Source: Lentisphaeria bacterium
GTDB lineage: Bacteria; Verrucomicrobiota; Lentisphaeria; JABSQK01
Length of the DNA: 34,694 nucleotides
Reading direction: 5' to 3'
NCBI GenBank assembly: GCA_013215875.1
Contig: JABSQK010000147.1
Span: 1-34,694, forward strand
Every line of letters starts with the position of its first letter. The stretch's first letter is position 1. Under the pieces are notes generated by a model. The model was not told the DNA's origin and did no database searches. It was given only the letters and a program-made list of their open reading frames with translations. Shown piece by piece: positions 3,838 through 26,319 of this stretch. The position numbers and the translations under genes were made by a program.

Positions 3838-3910
3838 CAAACACCTTTCATGTATGGGAATGCGAATTTGTATTATAGCTCTATGGCATGATCTATCAAG
3901 CAGCGATTTC

Positions 3911-3970
3911 GCCAAAGTAGTGAAATTCACAACTTTAAGGAATTACCGGCAATTTCACGCTCAAAGCGAA
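3911..3970 (+). repeat. 60-bp interspersed repeat, copy A (REP-like palindrome)
   Basis: About 60 bp matching 5746-5805 along its whole length. It contains AGTGAAATTCAC followed by a near-palindrome whose consensus over the two copies is GGAATTGCCGGCAATTCC, then CACGCTCAAA and CGAA. The right end runs into the stem of the terminator at 3964-3997. The copies lie just outside the two ends of the prepilin gene pair, in direct orientation. Confidence 0.65.
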
Positions 3971-3997
3971 GCAAAAAATCACTTTTTTGCTTCGCTT
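3964..3997 (-). terminator. Strong intrinsic terminator of the prepilin operon
   Basis: Perfect 15-bp inverted repeat (AAGCGAAGCAAAAAA / TTTTTTGCTTCGCTT) with a four-base loop TCAC. Read on the minus strand it lies 47 bp past the stop codon of the 214-residue gene and ends in a T-rich arm. The A/T-rich inner stem makes it potentially bidirectional. Confidence 0.75.
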
Positions 3998-4701: not shown

Positions 4702-5592
4702 CTAATAACTTTCAATTGACGAATCATTTAAACCATTCCATAAACTCGGGTCGCCACTACCACTGACGTCTTCAGGAAAATCTGCATCATATCCAGCATC
4801 AGTCATTGTCATACTATCTATATGCAGATCTCCAAATACAGCATTAAAACGTTTGAGGTGGCGTGGGTCAGCTGGACATTGACTTGCATTGGTTCCCCAG
4901 CGCCCATTTAATAAAGTCGGACCATCAAGTGTATAAGCATGTACATTTTCGCTTTTACTGGCATCGCCAAAGGCATCTGCCAAAAGAATTGTATCACTCG
5001 GATTAGAAACTCCCTTTACAAGTTCACCCTGGATTTGACTGCTATCTGGTAGAAATGGCCCAAAGGCTGCCCAGTTCATTCCGTAACTACCGCTTCGCAA
5101 ATACTTGCCACGATCTTCACCATCAATTTGATTTGTAGATCTATTTACTGAACTACAAATAAATAACTTATTGGTTATTTCATTTCCAGTACCCACAGTA
5201 CTCTCAATGCTTTTATCTTGAACTGATCCGCCAACATAACTCTCGATGGAATTACCCCAACGGAGTTTAGGGCTTGTTTTCCAACGGGCTGAGGGGAAGA
5301 AGCTATCATATTCATCTGCATAAAATACGAAGCCCATCCCAAGTTGCCTTAAATTATTCCCGCAGTTAATTGCTTGTGCTTTGGAACGTGCTTTTCCCAG
5401 AGTGGGCAATAGCATTGAAGCTAAAATTGCGATAATTGATATCACAACCAGTAGCTCGATCAATGTAAACATTGATCTTTCTAGCTTCCCAAACATTCTT
5501 CGAATGCTCTGCCAGCTTGTCGTTCCCGGAGGAACTCGTGTTTCGATTAATGTGAAATGCTGTTTTACTTTTCCCAAGAGATTTAATTTCAT
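4702..5592 (-). CDS. Type II secretion/type IV pilin-like prepilin (Lentisphaera-type)
   Basis: A pseudopilin-like protein with a type III prepilin-peptidase signal and membrane/assembly helix ([20 protein letters not shown], residues 42-61). A KARSKAQ segment and a large globular domain follow, ending near [14 protein letters not shown], which resembles the C-terminal H-X9-DG-like motif of PVC prepilins. The residue before the cleavage point is Met, not Gly. The N-terminus is unusually long (41 residues) and contains a second, degenerate FTLIE at 13-17. The ATG at 5592 has AAAGGAAAAAG directly upstream, so the extension appears to be translated. A Fur-type operator lies 35-59 bp upstream of the start. 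It heads a two-gene operon. Such proteins are highly multiplied in Lentisphaerota and their cargo or role is unknown. Confidence 0.88.
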
Positions 5593-5626
5593 CTTTTTCC
5601 TTTTGTCATGCGTTTAGTTACACAAT

Positions 5627-5651
5627 GATAATGATAACGATTATCATTATC
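5627..5651 (-). promoter_or_regulatory. Fur box upstream of the prepilin operon
   Basis: A perfect 11-bp inverted repeat GATAATGATAA / TTATCATTATC around a three-base centre, 25 bp in all. It matches the established Fur consensus (GATAATGATAATCATTATC) almost base for base. It sits 35-59 bp before the prepilin ATG. A TTGACT on the minus strand (5674-5679) could be the -35 element, which would put the box over the -10 region, the usual place for iron-dependent repression. It may also affect the divergent VanZ-like gene, whose start is about 210 bp away. The repressor itself is not in this window. Confidence 0.8.
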
Positions 5652-5745
5652 AATTAACTTACGTTTAAAACGAAGTCAATAAGCAGCGATGATAAATATA
5701 AAAAAAACATTGGAGAGCGTTTTTTTGTCTTAAAAGAGGCTATTT

Positions 5746-5805
5746 GCCATAGTGAGTGAACTCACCCTTTTCAGGAATTGCCGGCACTTCCACGCTCAAA
5801 TCGAA
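5746..5805 (+). repeat. 60-bp interspersed repeat, copy B (REP-like palindrome)
   Basis: Second copy of the repeat at 3911-3970 in the same orientation, with the centre GGAATTGCCGGCACTTCC and the flanking AGTGAACTCAC palindrome. It lies between the Fur-box promoter and the VanZ-like gene. Unlike copy A, no long terminator stem is attached. Confidence 0.65.
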
Positions 5806-5859: not shown

Positions 5860-6222
5860 ATGCCAAGACTAATTAAAAAAATTATTTTCTTCACGCTCTT
5901 AATTGGCGCGAGTCATCAATCACTGGTGCCACGACCTGTTGCGGTTTTAGCTGAAAAACCTGACGTGTTCCTGCATTTCATTTGCTGGTTTGTATTATCT
6001 CTAGCAATTCTCTTGGCCTTTCCCCAAAAGAATGCCTATGGGTTGATTGCAGTGCTTTTTGTGTATTCATGCTTGATAGAAGTCGGGCAGCATTTTGTAG
6101 AAGGGCGCTTTTTCTCATTCAGTGACATGCTGTGCAATGGGCTCGGCTGCGTGGGGGTCTTAGTTGGGCAATTCGCATACATGAAGATGAAGAAGGATAA
6201 AACCGTACTGGTGGATGATTAA
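5860..6222 (+). CDS. VanZ-like small membrane protein
   Basis: A 120-residue protein with about three to four hydrophobic segments. It has the VanZ-family pattern: PDVFLHFICWFVLSLAI (a DK..HF-like start of the second helix), a central IEVGQ, then GRFFSFSDMLCNGLGCVGV, which is the conserved E..Q ... GR..S..D...N..G block. VanZ-like proteins are integral membrane proteins; the founding member gives low teicoplanin resistance, but most members have no known function. No strong ribosome site is visible. The gene is divergent from the Fur-box prepilin operon and possibly ends at hairpins near 6278-6347. Confidence 0.75.
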   Translation: MPRLIKKIIFFTLLIGASHQSLVPRPVAVLAEKPDVFLHFICWFVLSLAILLAFPQKNAYGLIAVLFVYSCLIEVGQHFVEGRFFSFSDMLCNGLGCVGVLVGQFAYMKMKKDKTVLVDD

Positions 6223-12121: not shown

Positions 12122-13411
12122 TCAGCAAACCACGGGCATGAGCTGCGAGATCATTAGCGCTGCACCGGATAGTCCCATGGCGCCTGCAAATAATGCAAAG
12201 GCGATAAATACAATGACGACCATTATTAGCACAATTTCCACGATCAATAAAACACCCGATATTAAGCAAAATAAAAATAATGTAAAGCAGCCTTCTTCTG
12301 AATCTCCATAAACACGGTTGTAGCCGATATAGTAGGACCAGCCAAAAACCAAATTACTGAGGAAGAATGAAACGTTTAAATTAATTAATTCTAGAATGGC
12401 AAAAAGCACATCCGCTCCAAGTTGTATCGCATAAACGACGCAGGCCATACGAATTGCATCTTTAAACGTTGCAGCACGAATGCTCATTATCTTAGAAGTA
12501 AGGAAATAATTTATAATGCTCAATCCAAACATGATAATGATAAAAACGACCCCGGCAAGAAAACCAGCGATTGCTCCAAGGGTGGAATACTTGTCATAAA
12601 TTTGCTCAAATTTGCCCCGGGCGCTATCGTCATATTCGTGTTCATAATCATCAGACGATTTTGCATAAGCACCAAACTTCTTTTCAAATTTTTCATAATC
12701 GGCTAAAATATCATCGGTAATTATGTTTACATCGACTCCATACTTTTTTGCGAAGAATTCTTTTCGTTCTTTCTTGCTGGGAGCTTTTTCTTTCTCTTGC
12801 GCAGCTGATGTTTGTTTGCTAGAGGATTTCTTTTTAGATAGCGGCATGCCTGGCATCCCGCCTGGACTCGTTTTTTTTGGTTCCCTTTTAGATAGCGGCA
12901 TGCCTGGCATCCCAGGACTCGTTTTTGGGGATTCCCTTTTAGATGCAGGTTGCATGGGCATGCTGCCAGGACTCGCTGGTCCTTTATATCTACCATTGCG
13001 AATTTGTACTAACTTTTTCTGGGTTTCACCTGAAAACTTAGAAATGGGAACGGTGATTTTTTTACCGCCTTTTTTCTTCTTCAGGACCACCATATCATTC
13101 GGAAAGCTGATCACACGAGCAATGAGGACATTTTTCCCATCTTTGCTCGTGAGCTGATAATAGCGCTTTAATTCTTTTAGGCGGGCCTTTTCTGCAAGAA
13201 AATAAATCCGGTCTTTTTGAGAAAAGAAACTGATGGGTACAACGATGATTTTACCATCTTTTTGGCGTTTAATTTTTACTTTGGCGCCAACGAAGCCAGT
13301 TAGTTCACCATTTACCTTTTTCTTTCCATCCGCACTGTCAAAACTACGAGCTGATAACTGAATGGAGGAAATTAAAAAGATGGCAATTAGCCAATTGCAG
13401 AGTTTCACCAT
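12122..13411 (-). CDS. Membrane protein with two SHD1-like domains and a repeat-rich linker
   Basis: An exported, membrane-anchored protein of about 429 residues. A signal peptide (MVKLCNWLIAIFLISSIQLSA) is followed by two SHD1-like domains. Each shows a GxxxxV.....dGK...VPIS.FS pattern, at about residues 30-75 (KIIVVPISFFSQKD) and 90-140 (KKITVPISKFSGET). A P/M/K/S-rich linker follows with near-tandem SPGMPGMPLSK repeats, then a charged segment. The C-terminal half has four to five membrane helices. That half resembles the membrane domain of the next gene upstream (shared AIAGFLA start, TF.(N/D)A segment, and G-(C/S) turn). The ORF track starts at 13432, but the ATG at 13411 has AAGGG at good spacing and yields a clean signal peptide. 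Function unknown. Confidence 0.75.
   Translation of the reverse strand: MVKLCNWLIAIFLISSIQLSARSFDSADGKKKVNGELTGFVGAKVKIKRQKDGKIIVVPISFFSQKDRIYFLAEKARLKELKRYYQLTSKDGKNVLIARVISFPNDMVVLKKKKGGKKITVPISKFSGETQKKLVQIRNGRYKGPASPGSMPMQPASKRESPKTSPGMPGMPLSKREPKKTSPGGMPGMPLSKKKSSSKQTSAAQEKEKAPSKKERKEFFAKKYGVDVNIITDDILADYEKFEKKFGAYAKSSDDYEHEYDDSARGKFEQIYDKYSTLGAIAGFLAGVVFIIIMFGLSIINYFLTSKIMSIRAATFKDAIRMACVVYAIQLGADVLFAILELINLNVSFFLSNLVFGWSYYIGYNRVYGDSEEGCFTLFLFCLISGVLLIVEIVLIMVVIVFIAFALFAGAMGLSGAALMISQLMPVVC
12831..12975 (-). repeat. Tandem repeat coding for SPGMPGMPLSK units
   Basis: Two DNA copies of about 55 bp (TTTTAGATAGCGGCATGCC ... GGACTCG), beginning near 12831 and 12886, and a diverged third near 12940-12975. 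Together they encode the SPG(M)PGMPLSK linker of the two-SHD1-domain protein. Copy number may vary between strains. Confidence 0.7.
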
Positions 13412-13521
13412 TTGTCCCTTGAGTTCATACAAACTAGCACAAAATACATAAATTTAAATGTTTTTAGGCTTATCGGATGATAAAAAAAGAAGCAGTAATT
13501 TTAATTTTACATGAGGTAATT

Positions 13522-14241
13522 TTACATCATTTTCCAGATCATGGATAATGCTGCTGTTATTACGATAAGTATGCCAATAGGGACGAGGATAAAATAAAAT
13601 ATAAAAAATTTCATGCATCCCGCATCTTTATACGAGCGTTGGTATGCCCAATGGTAAGAAAATAAAAACCCAAGAATAGTTATAATAATGATAAGGATCA
13701 CGGACGGCAATACCATCGTTATACCGGCGATGACAAACTCTGTTAGGATGCCGAAAACAGAAAACCATATGGAAAATTTCACGGCATTTTGAAATGTGGG
13801 TTCGTCTGCTGCAAATTTACTGATAAACCATGTGTAAAGTACCTGGATGAGAAATTGTAGTATCAGGAAGGCAATAACAATGACAATGATGAGTACCAGG
13901 CCAAATGCTAAAAATCCTGCTATAGCTTGCTTAAACTTCGTGACATCTTCAGACTCCTCAATAAGATCTTCCTCTGCCTTAAACCCCACTCCATCATCAT
14001 AAGAAGCTACAACGGAGCGAAGATAGGCCTGGTCTTTCCGCTGAAAAGATGAAACCTTCATCTCAATCTCCCGGCCGTCTTTTTTACGAACAAGAATGAC
14101 ATTATCTCCATCCACAGAAATAACTTTTGCGATTAGTTTTTTGGAGCCATCCTTACTTCTAAATGTGTGATATTCGCCCTCGTCCTCTTCCTCCTCATAC
14201 TCCTCTTCTTCAATTTCGTCGTCATATTCTCCTCGCAACAT
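13522..14241 (-). CDS. SHD1-like domain plus multi-pass membrane protein
   Basis: 239 residues. A very acidic N-terminus (EIEEEEYEEEEDEGEY) is followed by one SHD1-like domain at about residues 26-75 (FRSKDGSKKLIAKV ... VILVRKKDGREIEMKVSSFQRKDQAYL). A charged stretch then leads into four or five membrane helices from about residue 105 to the end. There is no signal peptide, unlike its neighbours, so the SHD1-like part may face the cytoplasm. The ATG at 14241 is two bases after the stop of the thioredoxin gene and has no ribosome site of its own, so it is translationally coupled. The membrane half is paralogous to that of the 12122-13411 product. No function is known. Confidence 0.75.
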   Translation of the reverse strand: MLRGEYDDEIEEEEYEEEEDEGEYHTFRSKDGSKKLIAKVISVDGDNVILVRKKDGREIEMKVSSFQRKDQAYLRSVVASYDDGVGFKAEEDLIEESEDVTKFKQAIAGFLAFGLVLIIVIVIAFLILQFLIQVLYTWFISKFAADEPTFQNAVKFSIWFSVFGILTEFVIAGITMVLPSVILIIIITILGFLFSYHWAYQRSYKDAGCMKFFIFYFILVPIGILIVITAALSMIWKMM

Positions 14242-14243
14242 TT

Positions 14244-14801
14244 TTAGAATATTTTGGTCGCTTTTTTAAAAAAGGAGATGGGAATTTTTAAGCGTTTTTT
14301 GCCTTTCTTGCGAATGAAAATAACTTTGGTGCCCTCAAAGCCTTCAACTTTTCCTGTAATTTTTTTACCTTTCTTACTCGTTAAGGTCATTTGGCCGGGA
14401 CCTAGAGGTTCTTGTCTGGCAGAACGGCTGCTTATATGTTTGTCAATTTCAGCTGCAATGACGGCTTCACTAGTGACACCTACAAAGCGTTTCACCTCTT
14501 TGCCATTTTTGAAAATAATGATCGCTGGAATACCCCTAATACTATATTTTCGGGACGTGCTCTTTGCCTTATCAACATCCAACTTAGCAATTTTTGCCCG
14601 CCCTCTATAGCGCGATTCGAGCTTTACCATGATGGGGGCCTGCATTTTACACGGGCCGCACCAGACTGCCCAGAAATCAACAACAGTGACACCCGAGCGT
14701 ATTTTTTGAGAAAAGTTGCCATCGTTCAAATTACTGATAGCAAAGCTTGAAGAACAGCATAGACATGCCGCTAGAAAAACAATCTTTTTATACAATTTCA
14801 T
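14244..14801 (-). CDS. Exported thioredoxin fused to a C-terminal SHD1-like domain
   Basis: 185 residues. A signal peptide (KKIVFLAACLCCSSSFA, cut near residue 21) precedes a thioredoxin fold with active site WCGPC (47-51) and cis-proline in RGIPAI (Pro92). A C-terminal SHD1-like module follows (about 137-180, MTLTSKKGKKITGKV ... IPISFFKKATKIF). The protein should act as a disulfide reductase or isomerase outside the cytoplasm, or as a tethered redox partner. SHD1 domains bind NPF-type peptides in yeast Sla1; the role of bacterial copies is unknown. It heads a co-directional run with two SHD1-like membrane proteins, the next only 2 bp downstream. Cysteines in the signal peptide (CLCC) could suggest a lipoprotein, but there is no clear lipobox. 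Confidence 0.85.
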   Translation of the reverse strand: MKLYKKIVFLAACLCCSSSFAISNLNDGNFSQKIRSGVTVVDFWAVWCGPCKMQAPIMVKLESRYRGRAKIAKLDVDKAKSTSRKYSIRGIPAIIIFKNGKEVKRFVGVTSEAVIAAEIDKHISSRSARQEPLGPGQMTLTSKKGKKITGKVEGFEGTKVIFIRKKGKKRLKIPISFFKKATKIF

Positions 14802-24738: not shown

Positions 24739-25433
24739 AACCACTGATCATTGCACATCGCGGCTGTTCATCACTCGCACCTGAAAATACCGTCGAGTCC
24801 GTAAAACTTGCCCTCGACTGCAATGCCGATGGAATTGAAATAGATGTACGACTCACTGCCGATAAACAAATCGTTGTTACTCACGATACCTGTACCGATC
24901 GCATATCGACAGAAAACCTGGAAGTACCGACAACGACTTATGCCGATTTACACGAGCTCGATATAGGCAGCTGGAAAGGAAGCGAGTGGTCAGGGTGCCG
25001 CATGGCTCTGCTTGAAACGATATTTAATCTTATGCCAGATGACAAGCAACTACTGCTTGAAATAAAATGCGGTGATGAAATTATTGAGCCGTTAAAAAAA
25101 CTTGCACAAATCTTTCCCGCGAAACTAATAATCATATCCTTTGACTATGAACTCCTGCTTAAGATAAAGAAGCAGTTTGTAGAAATACCGGTGATGTGGA
25201 TCGTTGAAAAAATGGATAAAACAGTTTTAGAAAAATTTGCCCTATCTGATTTTGACGGGCTCGATTTTAATATCGATGTGAATACTTTGGACGAGATGAA
25301 GGACATTGCTGCGGGCCTGAAAAAAGAAAGTAAAATCATCTATACCTGGACAATGAACGATGCTCAAAGACTGGATGAGCTCTCATTTCTTGATGGGATT
25401 ACCACAGATTACCCACAGGATTTTAATCTTTAA
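24735..25433 (+). CDS. Glycerophosphodiester phosphodiesterase (GDPD family)
   Basis: 232 residues of a single GDPD TIM barrel. It hydrolyses glycerophosphodiesters to glycerol-3-phosphate and an alcohol. AHRGCSSLAPENTVES (H8, E17), ADGIEIDVRLTAD (E35, D37) and VVTHD (H50) give the metal-binding and catalytic residues, and the YTWTMND and DGITTDYP strands close the barrel. There is no signal peptide, so it is cytoplasmic, as in the UgpQ type. It starts at TTG 24735, overlapping the dioxygenase stop by four bases (TTGA). Its 3' end overlaps the convergent SHD1-like gene by 11 bp. Confidence 0.92.
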   Translation: MKPLIIAHRGCSSLAPENTVESVKLALDCNADGIEIDVRLTADKQIVVTHDTCTDRISTENLEVPTTTYADLHELDIGSWKGSEWSGCRMALLETIFNLMPDDKQLLLEIKCGDEIIEPLKKLAQIFPAKLIIISFDYELLLKIKKQFVEIPVMWIVEKMDKTVLEKFALSDFDGLDFNIDVNTLDEMKDIAAGLKKESKIIYTWTMNDAQRLDELSFLDGITTDYPQDFNL

Positions 25434-26319
25434 GTTCAGCGATTTGTGACTTAACGCCCTTTATCTGTTTCTTTACAGCGGAAATTTTGTCTTTTATCTG
25501 AGATCGCTTCTTTCTCTTTTTCCGTGAGAGAGAGTCATATTGATTTTTAAGTTTTGTTTCTTGAAACTTTAAATCATCGAGCTTTGATTCAAGTTTGGCA
25601 ATACGTGTTTCATTCTTAGCCTCTGCCCGATCCTCTATTTTATCCTGCCTGGCTTTCTCACGTTTTTTCACCGTGTCTGTAATTTTTTCCTCTTTGGATA
25701 AACGTTTCTCAGAAAAATCCTCTTTCTTTTTCCACTGACGATAGGCTTTGGTACTACCTGTGAATATAGCACCTAGTCGCAAGGGATTTTCTCCCAGTTG
25801 TTTATCAAAAGCTTTCCGTTTAAGAAAGTTTAATTCCTGGATTTGATTCATGCTCATGCCATTAAATTCGATCTTCTCATTATTGATTAATTTACAATAA
25901 GATGAAAATGCCTGATCCTTTTTATAAACCATCGCATTCGACACCGCATAACTACGCTTGGTCGTTTTTACGACTAACAAATTCTCAGTGATTACATCCG
26001 TGACTGTACCGATGACCTTGATGGACGTCTTGCCCCTTAGAATGATCCGACCATCCTTATCAAGCACATAGCGCTGACCCGCCAGCTGAAATGCGGCCTT
26101 TTTATTTAAGTGATGTTTGACAAGATAAAAGACATCTTCATTGCTGAGATCTTTTAGACTGCAGCTTTTTATTTTTGTGGAATTGGCTAAACGGAATTCA
26201 ACTCGGCCTTTTTCCATATTCCAGAATTGAGCTTCCACCCGCTTTGAGTCGATTTCCCAGATGCGCAAATCAGCCGCAAATACCTGCAGGGATAGCATAA
26301 GTAGTATTACATATTTCAT
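25423..26319 (-). CDS. Exported SHD1-like protein with C-terminal coiled coil
   Basis: 298 residues. A signal peptide (MKYVILLMLSLQVFA, cut before ADLRIW) is followed by an SHD1-like domain at about residues 17-65 (RIWEIDSKRVEAQFWNMEKGRVEFRL ... LKDLSNEDVFYLVKHH), the best match to the SHD1 pattern in the window. A second beta-rich segment follows (about 75-135, ILRGKTSIKVIGTVTDVITENLLVVKT). The last 100 residues are a highly charged coiled coil (KIEDRAEAKNETRIAKLESKLDDLK ...). No strong ribosome site precedes the ATG. It converges on, and overlaps by 11 bp, the GDPD gene. Role unknown; the architecture suggests an envelope structural or binding protein. Confidence 0.75.
   Translation of the reverse strand: MKYVILLMLSLQVFAADLRIWEIDSKRVEAQFWNMEKGRVEFRLANSTKIKSCSLKDLSNEDVFYLVKHHLNKKAAFQLAGQRYVLDKDGRIILRGKTSIKVIGTVTDVITENLLVVKTTKRSYAVSNAMVYKKDQAFSSYCKLINNEKIEFNGMSMNQIQELNFLKRKAFDKQLGENPLRLGAIFTGSTKAYRQWKKKEDFSEKRLSKEEKITDTVKKREKARQDKIEDRAEAKNETRIAKLESKLDDLKFQETKLKNQYDSLSRKKRKKRSQIKDKISAVKKQIKGVKSQIAELKD

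Follow-up and report, generated by a model that had tools for sequence, protein, structure and literature searches.

A Fur-type operator and conserved gene neighbourhoods link a Lentisphaeria prepilin to ferric-iron uptake

A 34,694-nucleotide stretch of DNA from a Lentisphaeria bacterium (contig JABSQK010000147.1; hereafter the window) carries, on its minus strand, a prepilin gene and the gene of a partner protein behind a Fur-type box. We find that the only other exact copy of this box in the genome lies before an fbpA gene, and that iron genes lie beside all three prepilin orthologues identified in the class; on these two grounds the prepilin is very probably part of a ferric-iron uptake system that would be induced by iron starvation. 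Direct reading of the sequence gives the operator, its presence before fbpA as well, and the conserved gene linkage, and these make an iron-regulated role in iron acquisition highly probable for the prepilin, which is probably a dedicated, undescribed helper for collecting iron. Lentisphaeria genomes contain tens to hundreds of prepilin-like genes, almost none with a known function. In this case a role is indicated by three independent lines, namely: a shared Fur operator, the operon partners, and a second type of operator in a relative.

The operator and its second copy in the genome

The box is a perfect 11-bp inverted repeat at 5627-5651, GATAATGATAA-CGA-TTATCATTATC, located 35-59 bp 5′ of the prepilin ATG at 5592 on the minus strand. 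Both its symmetry and its position were given correctly in the preliminary description, and the arms even extend to 12 bp (Table 1), so that the operator can be read as four hexamers, GATAAT-GATAAC-G-ATTATC-ATTATC, in a 6-6-1-6-6 layout. The previously noted resemblance to the Fur consensus also holds: the box matches the 19-bp consensus GATAATGATAATCATTATC at 18 of 19 positions on the minus strand and the 7-1-7 core TGATAATNATTATCA with a single mismatch. In the rest of the window there is no match to the Fur consensus at three mismatches or fewer (0.03 expected from shuffles). Palindromes with arms of at least 11 bp and a gap of at most 6 are found at two places only, the operator and a hairpin behind the partner gene (4 counts, two per palindrome, vs. 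0.11 expected by simulation), and the hairpin is a probable terminator of the operon.

Table 1. Features of the prepilin-partner operon, in window coordinates
Feature	Position	Strand	Remarks
Prepilin, 296 aa, target gene of the box	4702..5592	-	N-terminal helix and family-type H-x9-D motif
Motif H218-A-Y220-T-L-D223, prepilin ectodomain	4924..4941	-	Candidate Fe3+ ligands, with D242 and Y268
Putative Fur operator TGATAATGATAA-CGA-TTATCATTATCA	5626..5652	.	12-bp arms, 3-bp centre
Promoter-like -35 TTGATA / -10 TATCAT, 17-nt spacer	5625..5653	-	Consensus match only, 10/12
Ribosome-binding site AAAGGA	5598..5603	-	5 nt 5′ of the prepilin ATG
Partner protein, 214 aa	4045..4689	-	12 bp after the prepilin; no Pfam family
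Hairpin, arms of at least 11 bp	3967..3994	.	Just 3′ of the partner gene

The box spans the promoter-like pair TTGATA-17-TATCAT on the minus strand, which renders its earlier placement over the -10 element plausible, although such pairs are no commoner than in shuffled sequence. The box also falls within a 267-bp intergenic region that the prepilin gene shares with a divergent VanZ-like gene (5860-6222), and it might thus serve the latter, leaving the prepilin as a bystander. This is extremely improbable: the prepilin ATG is about 34 bp away, vs. 207 bp for the VanZ-like ATG, the box overlays the promoter-like site of the minus strand, and the prepilin orthologues are linked to iron genes (see below) with no VanZ-like gene seen in their loci.

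A 63-nt direct repeat (75-80% identical; 3908-3970 and 5743-5805, 1.8 kb apart) flanks the prepilin-partner operon. None of the other loci examined from the same genome contains another strong copy, and the repeat may be the trace of an old insertion of the prepilin-partner cassette. Elsewhere in the window, two proteins (12122-14801 and 25423-26319) show an SHD1-like domain by weak matches to PF03983, and a thioredoxin (14244-14801) ends in a C-terminal stretch of similar appearance.

The genome from which the window derives (5.49 Mb in 876 contigs, 92.7% complete, contamination 5.06%) contains exactly two exact copies of TGATAAYNRTTATCA, both including the core TGATAACGATTATCA. The second copy, on contig C477, is positioned 29-43 bp 5′ of a gene for a FutA/FbpA-type Fe3+ transporter, which is followed by a permease-like gene (named by eye) that is cut by the contig end. 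Thus, the check proposed in the preliminary description, whether known iron genes carry the site, has a positive outcome. A whole-genome search with the 19-mer Fur pattern at two mismatches or fewer likewise returns the prepilin box and the C477 site only. As controls, the reversed pattern of TGATAAYNRTTATCA has 0 copies in the genome and the Markov expectation is 0.27, while the 18-bp string common to both operator sites is expected 0.0006 times genome-wide under a first-order Markov model. Seven other Fur-like sites with one mismatch were judged to be chance occurrences, six of them being within genes and one across the 3′ end of a gene; weaker sites (at least two mismatches) are indistinguishable from chance.

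The product of the C477 fbpA gene is a full-length match to FutA1 (E 3.8e-99, residues 19-334), the FutA type being its closest solved relative, and it also matches other Fe3+-binding proteins. Its Tyr-Tyr dyad, NTYYLG, is aligned to NTYYMG of FutA1. The same genome encodes a Fur protein (contig C190, 171 aa, 98.2 bits to PF01475) that matches solved Fur proteins, a second and shorter Fur-family protein (C815), and a DtxR-family protein. Since the operator core is identical before fbpA, and Fur-family and DtxR-family proteins are encoded, the box very probably functions as a Fur operator, at which Fur would act as a repressor. By the strict criterion of an exact site, the sole co-regulated neighbour of the prepilin operon is very probably the ferric-iron transporter. 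Among 39 relatives, exact canonical Fur boxes were matched in 3 genomes vs. 4 for the control; the canonical consensus is therefore not enriched in the class, and the operator argument rests on the window genome. In another Lentisphaeria genome, an exact TGATAATTATTATCA is found about 95 bp 5′ of a rubrerythrin-like gene (L020; G015 C20:48208-48222), and is probably a Fur or PerR site.

Orthologues of the prepilin and their neighbours

In order to identify orthologues, a profile of the C-terminal half of the prepilin was run against 198 Lentisphaeria genomes, a set without another member of the window organism's family. The profile recovered three, namely: Victivallales Lenti_02 (LVAZ01000156.1), Lentisphaeria DeMMO1_3 (JAGVIF010000171.1) and Victivallaceae D100SM.bin.29 (JAKIUY010000150.1), none of which was found by a single-protein scan of contigs; plasmid records yielded no relative. 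The group is therefore present in 4 of the 198 genomes, the window's included, representing four families. All four assemblies are fragmented, and the three relatives are MAGs. Prepilin-like candidates number up to hundreds per genome in the relatives. The ectodomains of the four orthologues share 44-54% identity, whereas the longer alignments to other prepilins mostly fall in the range of 20-30% and have weak E-values. The four group together as a single clade (support 99/98) among Lentisphaeria prepilins.

In Lenti_02, the prepilin gene is followed by the partner gene and a FutA-type fbpA, with gaps of 30 and 15 bp. The FbpA in question is 44% identical to that of the window genome, where the Lenti_02 arrangement is in effect found as two halves, each with the same operator. 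In DeMMO1_3, the order is fur, a 78-aa ORF, prepilin and partner, all on one strand. In D100SM.bin.29, the prepilin gene is followed 7 bp on by the gene for an FTR1 iron permease (PF03239, 1.2e-43), in whose sequence two RExxE-type motifs are visible; FTR1 is found in 1 of the 198 class genomes, exactly beside this prepilin. Relatives of FbpA, FTR1, Fur, Feo or DtxR are encoded in all three orthologue loci (3/3), vs. none of 26 control loci of other prepilins.

The orthologues had also been named earlier as a place to look for the box itself, whose absence would speak against the proposal. The exact GATAAT-type box is absent upstream of all three, which counts against the proposal in a narrow sense only, as each is tied to iron by its neighbours: fbpA within the operon in Lenti_02, fur just upstream in DeMMO1_3, and FTR1 together with DtxR-type boxes in D100SM.bin.29. 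The latter boxes consist of two perfect TTAGG-N4-CCTAA sites 5′ of the prepilin-FTR1 pair, which we take to be the core of DtxR/IdeR boxes, and a DtxR-family protein is encoded in the same genome. There are three exact copies of TTAGGNNNNCCTAAT in D100SM.bin.29, two before prepilin-FTR1 and one 40 bp 5′ of feoA-feoA-feoB (FeoA and FeoB named by eye), where the 14-bp string is the same as in the second prepilin site. The prepilin sites are far from the start of the gene (about 280 and 375 bp). As TTAGGNNNNCCTAAT is not over-represented in this genome (16/19 vs. 57/61 for the control at one mismatch), the weight rests on the placement of its three exact copies. Taken at face value, these sites suggest that the prepilin remained under iron control through a change of regulator family.

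In DeMMO1_3, the stretch that separates fur from the following ORF of the prepilin cluster contains ATTGAGAATAAATCTCAAT (L067, 695-713), which, judged by eye, looks like a GAGAAT-type Fur box. A 25-bp inverted repeat before the Lenti_02 prepilin is unique in its genome and was set aside as uninformative.

The prepilin and partner proteins

The prepilin has the N-terminal hydrophobic helix FTLIELLVV, with Phe at +1 and Glu at +5 (residues 42-57). It scores 20.2 bits against TIGR02532, over the cut-off of 16.3, and 18.7 bits against PF07963, under the cut-off of 21.2. The -1 position of the cleavage site is Met in the window prepilin and Glu, Ala and Asn in the orthologues; as none of the four has Gly at this position, processing is putative only. 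About 29 residues before the real helix, the start of the window prepilin contains a decoy FTLIE (residues 12-46) that is absent from the three orthologues. A doubled start is also found, with a different linker, in a prepilin of the Victivallaceae family (L045 1285-2250).

Over about 35-45 residues, the N-terminal helix is similar to GspG/GspH, and the prepilin could be a pseudopilin of a type II-like system exporting an iron- or haem-releasing protein under iron starvation; secretion of an iron-releasing protein was among the suggestions of the preliminary description. We consider this reading very unlikely, given that the scores fall far below the NCBIfam equivalog cut-offs (26.0 vs. 80 bits for GspH; 23.3 vs. 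88.85 for GspG) and that no secreted-protein gene is consistently linked, the neighbours being either fur or inner-membrane and periplasmic transporters of free iron. The other options of the preliminary description, haem uptake and a filament, likewise find no specific support, and the linked transporters are those of free ferric iron. The broader proposal of iron acquisition is well supported by the shared site before fbpA and by the iron linkage of the orthologues.

In the ectodomain, six metal-capable residues (H218, Y220, D223, D242, M263 and Y268) are invariant in the four orthologues and rare in 31 other prepilins, with those of the H218-A-Y220-T-L-D223 motif occurring in 3-13% of the latter. 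The clearest signature of the orthologues is H-x-Y-T-L-D-G-P, which most paralogues do not have. Since His, Tyr and Asp typically serve as Fe3+ ligands, H-x-Y-T-L-D-G-P may be guessed, plausibly, to form an Fe3+ site. With an alignment of too little depth, AF2 gave a prepilin model too unreliable (pLDDT 37.9) for a metal site to be placed in it.

The partner was predicted with fair confidence (pLDDT 75.6) to have one transmembrane helix and an alpha/beta periplasmic domain. Its fold matches are weak, the best (E 8e-6, TMq ~0.45) being to one lobe of type I (sugar) binding proteins, and too weak to name a ligand. The partner was not found in D100SM.bin.29; thus, it is not essential to the iron association, of which the prepilin is the constant element.

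Proposed role and known systems

Taken together, the prepilin-partner operon is likely to be an accessory of ferric-iron uptake that is induced by iron starvation. When iron is plentiful, Fe-loaded Fur would occupy the box across the promoter and keep off both the prepilin operon and the futA/fbpA-type Fe3+ ABC transporter, and when iron is scarce both would be made. The prepilin would enter the inner membrane by its N-terminal helix and either stay anchored or join a short pseudopilus. Its ectodomain, with H-x-Y-T-L-D-G-P, would most likely bind or capture Fe3+, either at the surface or within the periplasm, and pass it to the dedicated permease of each genome, which would be FbpA/FutABC for the window organism and Lenti_02 and FTR1 for D100SM.bin.29. 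The partner, as a membrane-anchored periplasmic alpha/beta domain, would probably help docking or release.

The individual steps are held with less confidence. Direct binding and delivery of Fe3+ by the prepilin is put forward tentatively, and so are filament formation and action via the membrane-anchored partner. A further-reaching version, in which a dedicated Fe3+-binding pseudopilin (H218, Y220, D223, perhaps D242 and Y268) collects iron outside or across the outer membrane for FbpA/FTR1, is rather doubtful; if it is true, Lentisphaeria would have a siderophore-free, filament-based route of iron import that involves a new membrane partner protein.

Alternatively, the prepilin might be made in iron starvation and act indirectly, neither binding nor passing on Fe3+: it could serve at the surface, as a pilus or adhesin by which cells attach to iron-bearing particles, or in the membrane, as a protein of signalling or assembly that adjusts the transporter. 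Pili aid the use of iron oxides by Synechocystis (PMC4144903), while Legionella PilA2 promotes low-iron growth without pilus assembly, signalling being one hypothesis of the authors (PMC13170364). The prepilin could in addition reach the surface, and the partner resembles a binding-protein-like domain. However, the tight operon linkage to FbpA/FTR1, together with an H/Y/D motif that is specific to the group, suggests a closer involvement in transport, and we regard the indirect forms, even jointly, as unlikely. We therefore retain the accessory of ferric-iron uptake as the preferred reading.

The literature searched yielded no dedicated prepilin, or prepilin-partner cassette, encoded with an FbpA or FTR1 ferric permease, and that on Lentisphaera prepilins and DUF1559 nothing on a role in iron uptake. 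Among general type IV pilins, those of Moraxella catarrhalis and Xylella fastidiosa are reportedly encoded by genes that are Fur-repressed and raised in low iron (work ascribed to Luke, 2004, and Zaini, 2008). Fur-repressed pilin genes are cited in the discussion of PMC13170364, whose passage on the Moraxella and Xylella genes states no linkage to iron transporter genes. The same paper describes L. pneumophila PilA2 as promoting iron acquisition and assimilation, with Fe3+ binding by its ectodomain hypothesised, as in our reading of the window prepilin; unlike the latter, PilA2 is the major pilin of competence pili, and its monocistronic gene lacks a Fur box and is not regulated by iron. In Synechocystis, the type IV pilin PilA1 helps growth on iron oxides and insoluble ferric iron (PMC4144903), in a cell whose ferric transporter is also of the FutA type (FutABC), but PilA1 is a major pilin of general use, serving motility and DNA uptake, and is not a dedicated gene product of a ferric-transporter operon.

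The DUF1559/SBP_bac_10 family (PF07596), which includes prepilins of Planctomycetes, has been described as a family of solute-binding proteins (PMC2754498). The N-termini are alike, and the window prepilin weakly matches the start of the family, below the gathering score, whereas among Lentisphaeria prepilins the window protein and its three orthologues make up a separate clade. The window prepilin is a concrete test case for a question that the Synechocystis and Legionella work raised, namely whether pilin-like proteins can be dedicated parts of metal uptake, and it offers a partner for FbpA and FTR1 ferric transporters in cells without a known outer-membrane step. Finally, EfeO/EfeB and P19 are periplasmic iron-handling accessory proteins encoded beside FTR1-type permeases, and in D100SM.bin.29 it is the prepilin that takes this FTR1-adjacent place, a likeness by gene position.
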